From Lachnospiraceae bacterium (lineage in GTDB: Bacteria > Bacillota > Clostridia > Lachnospirales > Lachnospiraceae): a DNA stretch of 64,000 bases. This document shows positions 21,134 to 40,882 of this stretch, piece by piece. The stretch is from NCBI GenBank assembly GCA_022800815.1, contig JAAWRC010000017.1, positions 1-64,000 on the forward strand, written 5' to 3'. A program made the position numbers and the translations under genes. The notes under the pieces were generated by a model. That model was not told the DNA's origin, ran no database searches, and was given only the letters and a program-made list of their open reading frames with translations. Within the stretch, counting starts at the first letter, position 1. The number at the start of each line of letters is the position of its first letter.

Positions 21134-22369
21134 TCACATCTTTTCATCAAGATTTTTTTCTGTTTCCAGGTGGGAAAATTCAGGCAAATATTTATGAATC
21201 ATTTCTATGATGTCCCCCTTATTCTTTTCATCCTGATTTAAAGCGTCCTCTAATCTCTTTATAAATGCCGTCACGTCATCTCTGTTCGGAATATTTCCCG
21301 GTCTGATAATTCCGACCGCATCATACTTTTTCATCTCGGTCAGCTCGTCTGAAGTGTAAAATTCTTCAAATTTCTTTTCTCCCGACGTGTCGGATTTTTC
21401 AAAAAGTACCGGGTATTCCCTGCTTCCCCGCTTTAATGCAGCCATTCTGCTGACAGCCTCCATATTTGATTTGCATTCAACCGGCTCATATCCTAAAACC
21501 CTCAAAAAATTCCTGGCAATATTATCAAAAGACTCCATCTGGCTTACTTGCAGTTCAGGGAAAAATATTGATCTACTTTCTCCCATGATCGCCGCCAGCA
21601 AACATATTTGCCCGCTCTCCACGGGACTGACAAAATATCTCTTAATGTCCGTGGGTGCGCTTATGGGCTGTAATTTAGAAATTCTGTGCATAAATCCATC
21701 CAACAGTGATCCATTCGAAAACGCCACATTGGCAAATCTCGCTGTCTTGACCGGAAATAATTCAGAATAACTAAATATTAAATCCTCCATGATTCTTTTC
21801 GAAACGCCCATGACATTAACCGGATTTACCGCCTTGTCCGTACTTACACAAAAAAAACTTTCCGGCGGATAAGTTGCCAGCAAATCCAGCAGGCCCATCG
21901 CATTGATCACATTGTTTCGCAGCATTGCCTCTATGCTGTATATATCTTTTTCACTTCTCACATGCTTATGGGCGGAAAAATTGCAGACGATGTCAAATCC
22001 CGCAATGCTTTTCCCTGTGTTTCTGTGTCCCATAAACATATGCCTGAACGGACGGCTGTTATAGTCCATTGGATAAGTGCGGTAAGTGTCAGGCATATAA
22101 ATCCCGCTGCACCTGAGATCTCTGGTCAGTTCCGTCAGGGCATTTTCATTGGTGTCTACAATTATGACCTCGCCCGGCTCAAATGGGAGCATTTCTTTTA
22201 TAAAAGAGCTTCCAATGCTTCCCGCCCCGCCTATGACAAGCACACTTTTTCCATGTATTTTTTCATACAGTTTTTTTTGATTGTCATCAATATCCTTCTG
22301 AAACATGCTGCCGGAACGTCTTATGACATATTCCGATATAAAATCATTAAGATCAAACATCAAATTCAT
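21134..22369 (-). CDS. legB: LegB-like nucleotide-sugar 4,6-dehydratase (CapD/FlaA1-related)
   Basis: SVLVIGGAGSIGSSFIKEML; NFSAHKHVRSEKD; FCVSTDKAVNPVNVMGVSKRIME. Confidence 0.83.
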   Translation of the reverse strand: MNLMFDLNDFISEYVIRRSGSMFQKDIDDNQKKLYEKIHGKSVLVIGGAGSIGSSFIKEMLPFEPGEVIIVDTNENALTELTRDLRCSGIYMPDTYRTYPMDYNSRPFRHMFMGHRNTGKSIAGFDIVCNFSAHKHVRSEKDIYSIEAMLRNNVINAMGLLDLLATYPPESFFCVSTDKAVNPVNVMGVSKRIMEDLIFSYSELFPVKTARFANVAFSNGSLLDGFMHRISKLQPISAPTDIKRYFVSPVESGQICLLAAIMGESRSIFFPELQVSQMESFDNIARNFLRVLGYEPVECKSNMEAVSRMAALKRGSREYPVLFEKSDTSGEKKFEEFYTSDELTEMKKYDAVGIIRPGNIPNRDDVTAFIKRLEDALNQDEKNKGDIIEMIHKYLPEFSHLETEKNLDEKM

Positions 22370-36588: not shown

Positions 36589-36968
36589 TGATTTTAGTGG
36601 CCTTCAAATTTTTCCAGCTTTTCCTTTTCCACATTGCAGTTCTTCATGCTTGGTTTTTATAAATAAGGCATATTGGTCATCTTCCCGTCCAAAATACAGA
36701 CGGATGGATGATGCGAAAATACTTTCGCTTCGCTCCCCGCTACGTCACGAAACAGATTCTGATTTTCCGTGTTCACGAGGTCCTGGCATATCCAATGCGC
36801 AGAAGTCCTGGTCTTTCCATTCGTTCTGCCTTCTAATGCCGTATCGTTTTTTATAGGGCAGATGTCACTGCATCTGTCCGATCATGGCCGCATCCTTCCG
36901 TCCCTTCGGTAAAATCACCGGCAGAAACACCGCAATTTATCAGAAAGACCGTCCTTATGACTCTATTT

Positions 36969-38285
36969 TTATTGTAAGGGAGTTTCCACTCCTCCCCGTT
37001 CCCTGGCGTTACGGGCAGTATTCATCTTTTCTTCCGCCTCATAGCCGCAAACCGGACAGAAAAAACGTCCCTCTTTCTTGATCCCACTGGCACCGCATCG
37101 GCTGCATTCACCGCTGATTCCCTTTCCAAATACCTGCACCAGTTCCACCGACTGTTCCTCACACTTCTGTTCCAGTCGTTTCCGTATATATCCCCTCTGC
37201 CACATGGAGGGGGATTGATTGATTCTCCGGTTCTTTCCACCGCTTCCTACACCGGGAAGCTTCGCCATATAGACGGTTTCGGGCTTCTCCGTCCGAAGGA
37301 AACGATTCAATTCCTGATTGACATAGCCGTGCAGCCGTTCCTGAAACCTGCGTTTCTTTGCATGAAATTTTTTCCGTCCCGGATTGTTCTCCCGGTTCCT
37401 GTTATAAATTCCCGTCTGCATGCGCATCCAGTCCGCATATTCTCTCTGAAGATTCCCGAGCTCTTCTCCATACCGGTTGCCGCCTTCTGTCGTCAGCATC
37501 GTATGGAACCCCAGTGCGATCCCGACCCGTCCGGTATAATCCGGATGGCTTCTGACAGCCACGTCCACGGGAACCCTGAACACAACCTTGTTTGTCTCCG
37601 GAAACAGTTTGATATAAAGCTGCCGTTCGTACCGATTATTGTCCGTCAATGGAATAAAAATACGCCTACGTTTTTCTTTTGTGGTAATGTAGATGCCATG
37701 ATCCCCATAGCGGTAGGTACGTTCGCTAAGCGCAAACCCTTCCTCCAAGTCCGTATGCTGTTTTATGTGATGTTTCCGCACCTGGCGGCAGAGATAACTT
37801 TGCAGATGCTCTGTGTCCACCTGCACCTCCATCTCGTCAAATGCTTGCCGGTATTCCTCCGGAAGCGATGGGATCGGCTCTCGGTTCAACACGGCCTCAA
37901 AGATCTTTCCGTTTTTCATAAGAAACCGCAGGTAATGTTTTTCCGTATCAGAAAAGCCCTCGTTTTTTCCGACACATTCCAAAACCTTCGTCTTGGTCCT
38001 GCTCCACTGGCTCTTTATATCTCCCAGCGCATCGAACACCGCCAGATAAAAATAAGCAGAGGGCATCCCAAGCCGTTCCCTGAGTCCGCTTTTTGTCATC
38101 TCATTCTGAATTGTATAGCCCGGATAAAGCTTTGGCAGACTACCAATCCCTCCAAAACGATCATACACATAATTTTTTACCGTCCGGTAGTCTTCTGCGA
38201 TTTCCTGCAGCTTTTGCATGTCTTCTGCCGAAAGCGGAACTTTGCTGTACTGATGTACCGTCTTACAGATTTTATCGGCCGGCAT
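36969..38285 (-). CDS. TnpB/IS605 OrfB-family protein, predicted nuclease-dead
   Basis: RuvC-I region GRVGIALGFHTMLTTEGG, RuvC-II region PETVYMAKLPGVG, Zn-ribbon CSRCG...CPVCGY, RuvC-III region EAEEKMNTARNA; canonical D/E/D positions occupied by A/A/K. Confidence 0.82.
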   Translation of the reverse strand: MPADKICKTVHQYSKVPLSAEDMQKLQEIAEDYRTVKNYVYDRFGGIGSLPKLYPGYTIQNEMTKSGLRERLGMPSAYFYLAVFDALGDIKSQWSRTKTKVLECVGKNEGFSDTEKHYLRFLMKNGKIFEAVLNREPIPSLPEEYRQAFDEMEVQVDTEHLQSYLCRQVRKHHIKQHTDLEEGFALSERTYRYGDHGIYITTKEKRRRIFIPLTDNNRYERQLYIKLFPETNKVVFRVPVDVAVRSHPDYTGRVGIALGFHTMLTTEGGNRYGEELGNLQREYADWMRMQTGIYNRNRENNPGRKKFHAKKRRFQERLHGYVNQELNRFLRTEKPETVYMAKLPGVGSGGKNRRINQSPSMWQRGYIRKRLEQKCEEQSVELVQVFGKGISGECSRCGASGIKKEGRFFCPVCGYEAEEKMNTARNARERGGVETPLQ

Positions 38286-38310: not shown

Positions 38311-38334
38311 TTTCAAAAAGTACACTTTTTGCAA
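38311..38334. repeat. 24-bp palindrome (11-bp arms, AC core, one arm mismatch): TTTCAAAAAGT-AC-ACTTTTTGCAA
   Basis: Read directly; 26 bp upstream of the TnpB-like start codon. Confidence 0.9.
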
Positions 38335-38444
38335 AAACAGTTGTAAACAAAAAAATTATTTATTTTATTATTTTATATAAAATATCGTCGGAATTTCTCC
38401 AAACTTTAATTTTTTCTTGTGAACCATTACGCACTGATCATTTT

Positions 38445-38468
38445 TTGCAAAAAGTGTACTTTTTGCAA
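38445..38468. repeat. 24-bp perfect palindrome (11-bp arms, GT core): TTGCAAAAAGT-GT-ACTTTTTGCAA
   Basis: Read directly; 30 bp beyond the recombinase stop; core inverted relative to the 38311-38334 copy. Confidence 0.92.
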
Positions 38469-38497: not shown

Positions 38498-39130
<633 letters not shown>

Positions 39131-39209: not shown

Positions 39210-39560
39210 AGTAAATCAATATCCCAAAGGCTTTGACGAGAAGAAGTAAGCTGGATTTCCCGCTTCCCAGAGAGCATCCGCCCGGTGGAAGGATGCAGGC
39301 GGCCCCGGTCTGAATACGTCTCAGAGCTGTCTCCTGAACCTGTTCCCGGTCCTGTTTTGAGGGAACCCAGTAGGGATGACCGGAGGCATCCGTTACCAGG
39401 CAGGGGAATCTGTGCACAAACTCCGGTGCGGACGATCAGTCTGCGGATCCGGGTTCTGCCAGTTGTTCTCCGTGAGGGGGAGCCTGTGAGGGCTTCCCGA
39501 AACAGAGGTGGTACCGCGAATTTCCTTCGCCCTCTGTCCGGATGGACAGAGGGCTTTTTA
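39210..39560 (+). promoter_or_regulatory. T-box riboswitch leader (Tyr specifier) with terminator/antiterminator
   Basis: T-box sequence AGAGGTGGTACCGCG at 39504-39518; AGTAGGGATGACCGG distal stem I element; terminator GCCCTCTGTCC-ggat-GGACAGAGGGC-TTTTT at 39529-39559; candidate TAC specifier in GAATACG. Confidence 0.92.
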
Positions 39561-39652: not shown

Positions 39653-40882
39653 ATGAAAATTTACGAAGAACTGCAGGCCAGGGGGCTGATCGCCCAGGTG
39701 ACGGACGAGCCGGAAATCCGGGACCTCGTCAACAACGGCAACGCCCGGTTTTATATCGGCTTCGACCCCACCGCCGACTCCCTCCACGTGGGACATTTTA
39801 TGGCGCTCTGCCTGATGAAGCGGCTCCAGATGGCTGGAAACAGGCCCATCGTCCTGATTGGCGGCGGCACGGGGCACGTGGGGGACCCTTCGGGACGGAC
39901 GGACATGCGCTCCATGATGACCAGGGAGACCATCGACCACAACTGCGAGTGCTTCAAAAAGCAGATGGAGCGTTTCATCGAGTTCGGCCCCGACAAGGCC
40001 GTCATGGTGAACAATGCAGATTGGCTTTTAAAACTGAACTACGTGGATCTGCTGAGAGAGGTGGGCGGCTGCTTTTCCGTCAACAACATGCTCCGGGCCG
40101 AGTGCTACAAGCAGCGCATGGAGAAGGGCTTAAGCTTCCTGGAATTCAACTACATGATCATGCAGGCCTATGATTTTTATTATCTGCATCAGCATTACGA
40201 CTGCAACATGCAGTTCGGCGGCAACGACCAGTGGTCCAACATGCTGGCCGGGACGGAGCTGATCCGCAAGAAGACCACGGAAAACGAGGACGCCTACGCC
40301 ATGACCATCACCCTCCTCATGAATTCCGAGGGCAAGAAGATGGGCAAGACCGCCAAGGGTGCCGTGTGGCTGGACCCGGAAAAGACCTCTCCCTTTGAAT
40401 TTTATCAGTACTGGAGAAATACCGGGGATGCCGACGTGTTAAAATGCATCCGCATGCTGACCTTCCTCCCCCTGGAGGAGATCGACAAGATGGACAAATG
40501 GGAGGGGAGCCAGCTCAACGAGGCCAAGGAGATCCTCGCCTGGGAACTGACCAGCCTGGTACACGGCCGTGAGGAGGCCGACAGGGCAAAACAGGCTTCC
40601 CACGCCCTTTTTGCGGGCGGCGGTGACGAGGAAGGCATGCCTTCCACAGAGCTTTCCAAAGAACAGCTCACGGACGGCGCCGTCGGCATCCTGGATCTGA
40701 TGATGGCCTGCAAGCTGGCCCCCACGAGGAGCGAGGCCAGACGGCTGGTCACCCAGGGCGGCGTCACCGTGGACGGCGAAAAGGCCACCCTGGATACCAG
40801 GGTGACCGAGGCCGCACTTGTGAACGGCGTAAAGATCCGCAAGGGCAAGAAGGTGTACCACAAGGCGCTGCTCAAGGCATAA
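39653..40882 (+). CDS. tyrS: Tyrosyl-tRNA synthetase
   Basis: FYIGFDPTADSLHVGHFMAL; IQFGGNDQWSN-like MQFGGNDQWSNMLAGTELI; GKKMGKTAKGAVWLD; C-terminal S4 region. Confidence 0.97.
   Translation: MKIYEELQARGLIAQVTDEPEIRDLVNNGNARFYIGFDPTADSLHVGHFMALCLMKRLQMAGNRPIVLIGGGTGHVGDPSGRTDMRSMMTRETIDHNCECFKKQMERFIEFGPDKAVMVNNADWLLKLNYVDLLREVGGCFSVNNMLRAECYKQRMEKGLSFLEFNYMIMQAYDFYYLHQHYDCNMQFGGNDQWSNMLAGTELIRKKTTENEDAYAMTITLLMNSEGKKMGKTAKGAVWLDPEKTSPFEFYQYWRNTGDADVLKCIRMLTFLPLEEIDKMDKWEGSQLNEAKEILAWELTSLVHGREEADRAKQASHALFAGGGDEEGMPSTELSKEQLTDGAVGILDLMMACKLAPTRSEARRLVTQGGVTVDGEKATLDTRVTEAALVNGVKIRKGKKVYHKALLKA

Follow-up and report, generated by a model that had tools for sequence, protein, structure and literature searches.

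In the capsule loci of Bacteroides, an invertible promoter is followed by a pair of regulator genes and then by the glycan genes, and TnpB is a CRISPR ancestor. DNA-inversion phase variation and an exapted TnpB are joined in a layout that we met once in open-access papers, the hin - invertible promoter - csrA - tldR flagellin loci of Oscillibacter and Flavonifractor (Nat Microbiol 2026, PMC13418256). We analyzed 64,000 nt of DNA from a Lachnospiraceae bacterium (assembly GCA_022800815.1, contig JAAWRC010000017.1, positions 1 to 64,000), referred to here as the window, in which a small serine recombinase gene, two inverted dyads and the gene for a nuclease-dead TnpB-like protein stand in front of a structured RNA and a surface-glycan island. 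This locus very probably undergoes reversible site-specific promoter inversion, that is, phase variation; the dyads, the inversion in homologues, the conserved promoter-like sequence, the loss of the catalytic triad and the RNA were all read from sequence comparison.

With the Bacteroides capsule loci the window locus shares the order of switch, regulator as first gene and surface-glycan operon, whereas its regulator is a TnpB derivative with an RNA and the one in Bacteroides is a NusG paralogue with a partner. The likeness to the published flagellin loci is one of locus layout: common to both are an upstream recombinase (Hin-type in the published loci) with a promoter inversion of ~120 bp directly downstream of it, a nuclease-dead TnpB with an adjacent RNA, an origin in gut Clostridia and the link to a surface structure. 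In contrast to those loci, the present one has no csrA (the only csrA match of the window genome is on contig 27), its family occurs in Lachnospiraceae and mostly precedes glycan or secreted-protein operons with few flagellins, and its promoter is sigma-A-like instead of FliA-dependent as reported for those loci. The family further differs in a tyrosine-recombinase switch type, in RNA copies that lack a TnpB gene (orphan RNAs) and in that no guide target was found. Among open-access papers, the hin-inverton-csrA-TldR layout is known, and to it the present family adds another type of switch, orphan RNAs and operons for glycans. TnpB is not mentioned in a survey that covered the invertons of a gut community.

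The TnpB-proximal dyad lies at 38311-38334 (TTTCAAAAAGTACACTTTTTGCAA) and the recombinase-proximal dyad at 38445-38468 (TTGCAAAAAGTGTACTTTTTGCAA). Both are 24 bp long, inverted with respect to each other and 134 bp apart, and fall wholly within the gap between the stop codon of the recombinase gene at 38498 and the start of the TnpB-like gene at 38285, both genes being encoded on the minus strand. Read in gene direction, the recombinase-proximal core is AC and the TnpB-proximal core GT. The complete inverted repeat comprises 27 nt at 96%, of which 24 nt are perfect, and the segment between the dyads (38335-38444) contains the palindrome ATTTTATATAAAAT at 38370-38383. These sequences, their coordinates and their intergenic placement were given exactly in the original prediction, which had been made from the DNA letters of the window. 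A pattern search of the 3.4-Mb window genome with the 18-bp core CAAAAAGTNNACTTTTTG returned two matches without mismatch, the two window dyads, and the pair is therefore not a chance occurrence. The opposed AC/GT cores on which that prediction built are present in the window and are not obligatory in the family, since some relatives carry palindromic AT/AT or TA/TA cores and thus have sites without core polarity.

Inversion between such dyads was found when homologous loci from different species or paralogues were compared. Loci L074 and L082 are collinear over 2309 bp at 98.3% up to the first dyad, after which 127 bp are inverted at 90.6%. The same was seen for L063 and L082 (flank collinear at 90.1%, segment inverted at 98.4%), for L089 and L099 (85-87% and 79%, respectively) and for L090 and L117, where a likewise collinear flank adjoins a segment inverted at 76%; L099 and L117 carry a TnpB-like gene. 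Genome G283 by itself contains two almost identical segments, each linked to an RNA, that run in opposite directions (score 75 versus 13). The window segment itself aligns with that of L042 in reverse only, with a score of 18 versus 8, the 99th percentile of chance being 14. Because the breakpoints lie at the dyads and the flanks are intact, there is little room for a cause other than inversion. The invertible switch proposed by the original prediction is thus supported by natural inversions in homologous loci as well as by the conserved promoter inside the segment.

Thirty-three segments were scored for their best sigma-A-like promoter against dinucleotide shuffles. The scores exceeded those of the shuffles (combined Fisher p 6e-13), and in 27 of the 33 the -35 element starts in the middle fifth of the segment (p 3e-11). 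In the window, comparison with homologues places a candidate promoter toward the TnpB-like gene at 38362-38391 on the minus strand, with TATAAA at ~38377-38372 or TAAAAT at 38367-38362 as -10 candidates; many homologues have hexamers of the TTGA..-17-TA..AT type at this place. The spacer contains the motif GACGATAT (38389-38382), which with at most one mismatch is present in 11 of 17 TnpB- or RNA-linked segments, compared with 2 of 20 others. The window thus appears to be in the ON orientation, with its candidate promoter pointing at the TnpB-like gene. By promoter or motif orientation, L089, L195 and L200 read as ON as well, and L042, L064, L091, L099, L115, L117, L150, L152, L155 and L181 as OFF; L055 reads as ON by motif, but its promoter scores conflict.

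The recombinase (38498-39094, minus strand) has 198 amino acids. Residues 4-148 match the Resolvase domain (Pfam PF00239, E 3e-29), and the remaining ~50 residues look like a helix-turn-helix, a reading of the sequence and not a tool match. The best match in PDB is Sin / Tn552 Bin3 (2r0q, E 6e-31), with weaker matches to gamma-delta resolvase and DNA-invertase chains, and the invertase and resolvase matches span most of its length. With the Hin, Gin and Mpi switches the locus has in common inverted dyads of ~24-26 bp with a 2-bp core and a promoter between them, so that a Resolvase catalytic domain, two such dyads and inversion (in homologues) are found together as in Hin/Gin-type systems. It differs from them in the palindromic cores of some relatives and in its recombinase, which is nearer in sequence to Sin/Tn552 Bin3 than to Hin/Gin and scores 41 bits against the NCBIfam model of Mpi-type master invertases (PRK13413), below the cut-off of 272.

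We compared 80 homologous recombinase loci with flanks of up to 5 kb. The dyad pair or a recognizable variant is located just 3' of the recombinase gene in about 30 of them, the dyads being mostly 125-150 bp apart, usually with the GT core first and the AC core second. A strong inverted-repeat pair was present in 17 of 69 recombinase-downstream windows and in 3 of 174 control windows, a ~14-fold excess; in this comparison the strongest inverted repeat of L112 is one other than its dyad pair. A TnpB-like gene is nearby in nine of the homologous loci. Most downstream genes bear no relation to TnpB, among them genes for fibronectin/cohesin proteins, acyltransferases and MmeI-type restriction; that the recombinase is followed by paired dyads in these loci too supports the switch, as does L115, in which recombinase and TnpB-like gene diverge and the dyads still front the latter. 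The loci L041-L120, in which this recombinase family precedes MmeI-type restriction, cohesin/fibronectin and acyltransferase genes, may include further phase-variable operons, an assignment made for the group and not per locus.

The TnpB-like protein (36969-38285, minus strand, 438 amino acids) carries a Cas12f1-like zinc-binding domain (Cas12f1-like_TNB, E 3e-8) and matches the guided_TnpB model with E 3e-13, yet under its cut-off. Its RuvC triad D/E/D is replaced by A/A/K. In 32 of 33 family proteins these positions are A/S, A/V/P and K/R, and the most divergent member, L170, has Y, P and S. The nuclease-dead state named in the original prediction therefore holds for the window protein and for its whole family. 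That the nuclease was lost with a common pattern of substitutions speaks in favour of a function that has been kept and involves no cutting. An AlphaFold model (predicted local distance difference test, pLDDT, 69; predicted template modelling score, pTM, 0.45) matches Cas12f, TnpB and Fanzor over ~400 columns with best E values of 2e-8 to 2e-7; since the TM-scores of these matches are low, domain placement is uncertain. As in TldR proteins, RuvC residues are lost and the fold is kept, as judged from this model of moderate confidence (pLDDT 69). Full-length or near-full-length members were found in ~17 of 397 Lachnospiraceae genomes. The window genome has two paralogues on other contigs, 61% and 51% identical, so that its three genes lie on contigs 32, 71 and 72.

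When 34 loci of the TnpB-like family were classified by paired inverted sites, ~24 were found to sit behind such sites, which are of two unrelated kinds apart from L166, whose inverted repeat is of yet another kind. Dyad pairs of the serine type occur at 12 loci (weakly at L084). Another 11 have pairs of a different 28-bp dyad, TTTTCGCAGATT-N6-AATCTGCGAAA, with complementary spacers; in nine of these pairs the dyads are separated by ~1.4-1.5 kb and enclose a tyrosine recombinase gene, and in two the distance is ~410 bp. At loci of the tyrosine type even the recombinase gene changes direction: within one genus it is co-directional with TnpB in L038 and divergent in L154, where TTGACA-17-TATAAT points at TnpB. 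Across L038, L153, L154, L156, L160, L164, L165, L168 and L169, each with the tyrosine recombinase gene inside its own invertible segment, both orientations were observed. L038 and L039 are the second and third TnpB-like copies of the window genome, and all three copies stand behind paired inverted sites. The importance of switching for the function of the TnpB-like protein is best argued from the independent recruitment of two recombinase types to one gene family. The single serine switch of the original prediction applies to the window, and the tyrosine type at the sister loci had been missed, as had a structured RNA 3' of the TnpB-like gene, which is described below.

Several observations weigh against promoter inversion in the window. 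The evidence for both orientations comes from homologues, the promoter calls derive from consensus, and the -35 element of the window is poor, so that transcription in its ON state may be low or depend on an activator. Several recombinases with 72-84% identity (e.g. L041) have no such dyads adjoining, and no pair of the dyad motif was found when five relatives' genomes were searched; in these cases a shared site, expected of close recombinases, was lacking, and recombinase identity is thus no predictor of the site. Conversely, within ~6 kb on each side of the TnpB-linked dyads of L150, L152 and L155 this recombinase family is not represented, and the enzyme may therefore act in trans. The core polarity in the window is AC..GT, opposite to the GT..AC of most relatives, and since inversion cannot change external core polarity this difference must have arisen otherwise. 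If the dyads were a resolution site, operators or hairpins, no inversion would take place; palindromes can bind regulators, and the closeness of the recombinase to Sin / Tn552 Bin3 would fit such a role. We regard this as highly improbable because natural inversions run exactly between such dyads, of which there are just two, opposed, at steady spacing and with a promoter between them. A serine recombinase beside a tnpB homologue also resembles the remnant of an IS607-like transposon with its serine transposase and TnpB, an origin to which we give hardly any credence: the Resolvase domain is N-terminal (4-148), the IS607 transposase model reaches 26 bits against a cut-off of 110, TnpB is dead throughout the family, the partner is often a tyrosine recombinase, the serine recombinase is single-copy in the window genome, and phage and plasmid records contained no relative covering most of the TnpB-like protein. 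Promoter inversion stays the favoured explanation of the locus.

A conserved RNA element is located behind nearly every TnpB-like gene. In the window its 5' domain (36843-36968, minus strand), defined by an alignment of 21 loci, directly follows the TnpB-like stop codon, and its core (36661-36842, minus strand; model R1, E 9.5e-27) extends from ACGGCATTAG to CCAATATGCCTTATTT with the pseudoknot ATTGG/CCAAT. Across 21 sequences the structure comprises seven helices with 33 pairs, the long-range pseudoknot among them; these are 92% paired, compared with 80% in shuffles, and 21 pairs change on both sides, compared with 10.6, a control that is inflated by the relatedness of the sequences. Sliding the pairing partners destroys the signal; this control is free of that effect, though the structure was derived from the same sequences. 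No Rfam family, known antitermination RNAs included, matches the element. Matches of the model were found in 18 of the 397 genomes, and almost all adjoin a TnpB-like gene or its remnant. The exceptions are in G283, where three RNA copies (L181, L195, L200) lack a TnpB gene and each lies directly behind an invertible promoter, a further copy (L203) accompanies a broken TnpB, and one intact TnpB-like gene (L151) has no adjacent RNA. RNA and protein are thus separable, and the RNA is linked to the switch at least as tightly as the protein is.

Downstream of the RNA, the co-directional surface-glycan island occupies 509-36588 on the minus strand and, annotated from position 21134 upward, encodes a cytidylyltransferase/oxidoreductase, GDPD, CDP-glycerol glycerophosphotransferase, an NTP transferase, NeuB and polysaccharide synthesis functions, enzymes of a teichoic-acid-like and sialic-acid-like kind; it may form a single transcript. 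At other loci the downstream genes, named by reading their sequences, encode secreted and membrane proteins and nucleotide-sugar enzymes. A recurrent pair of a ~180-amino-acid membrane protein and a ~340-amino-acid secreted protein, possibly a surface fibre, was noticed downstream in L150, L152, L155, L115, L165, L156 and L091. In L157 and L158 the TnpB-like gene is directly downstream of a flagellin gene, with a FliB-like gene between them in L157, and paired sites were looked for at both loci with none found.

In the mechanism that we propose, a serine recombinase, most likely the adjacent one, would pair the dyads, cut at the 2-bp cores and invert the ~134-bp segment. In one orientation transcription from the single promoter of the segment would cover the gene of the nuclease-dead TnpB-like protein, then the RNA and, through read-through, the glycan operon, whereas in the other it would be directed back toward the recombinase. 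We infer that the adjacent enzyme acts, that inversion takes place in the window strain and that read-through reaches the operon. Since the arrangement recurs across Lachnospiraceae, a phase-variable RNA-protein regulator is suggested: protein and RNA most likely form a ribonucleoprotein derived from TnpB and its omegaRNA, which regulates surface genes without cutting DNA.

Two modes of action, both compatible with the switch, compete for this regulator. To the first, a TldR-like repressor that is guided by RNA, works in trans and has its guide 3' of the conserved CCTTATTT, we assign close to an even chance. This would explain the family-wide loss of the RuvC triad with the TnpB fold kept, the position of the RNA directly 3' of the gene, its covarying pseudoknot and the divergent sequence after its conserved end. 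It would also fit the two family members adjoining flagellin genes, flagellins being regulated by published TldRs that have a hin inverton upstream (PMC13418256), and G283, in which three loci have an RNA but no TnpB gene and one intact TnpB gene has no RNA. A structured, covarying RNA stands where TldRs have their guide RNA scaffold, its role as a guide being putative. Guide searches, made with the 19-20 nt after the RNA end at up to 3 mismatches in whole genomes and for exact matches in flanks, gave no target. The tails of two of the three RNA copies in the window genome have no second match there within 3 mismatches in 19 bases, that of one flagellin-linked member has no further match in its genome (up to 3 mismatches), and exact matches in flanking DNA yielded nothing convincing above shuffles, nor did the RNAs' own promoters. 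Two G283 elements share a match of 11 bases, which we attribute to chance. Because this search, as limited to 19-20 nt and 3 mismatches, produced no guide target, the family is not filed as TldR. Alternatively, the RNA could be a cis-acting leader of the surface operon whose nascent transcript is bound by the protein, for example for processive antitermination of the long operon. Usually the RNA is found between the promoter and the operon, in many cases at 25-60 nt from the start codon that follows, and the three orphan RNAs of G283 keep their place behind an invertible promoter in the absence of TnpB, but the flagellin-linked L157 and L158 have no long operon closely following and Rfam matched no known antitermination RNA; we take the cis-acting leader seriously and on balance doubt it. 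What probability remains falls to something else.

If the ribonucleoprotein reading is true, each cell of a clonal population in the gut would turn its RNA-protein regulator and its surface glycans on or off jointly. Tentatively, we consider it possible that such phase-variable regulators are spread throughout the Lachnospiraceae, with a dead TnpB and the new structured RNA heading surface operons, invertible promoters supplied by two unrelated recombinase types, and RNAs scattered among several operons but served by a single protein, which would coordinate the choice of surface structure. The orphan RNAs and the paralogous switches within one genome offer a natural test of RNA-protein action in trans, and the RNA, which is not in Rfam, lends itself to structural and pull-down studies. 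Upstream of the recombinase gene, an ordinary T-box leader was detected at 39224-39455 on the plus strand, before a tyrosyl-tRNA-synthetase-like gene (39653-40882); it scores 70.4 bits (E 1.6e-14), under the gathering score of 93.
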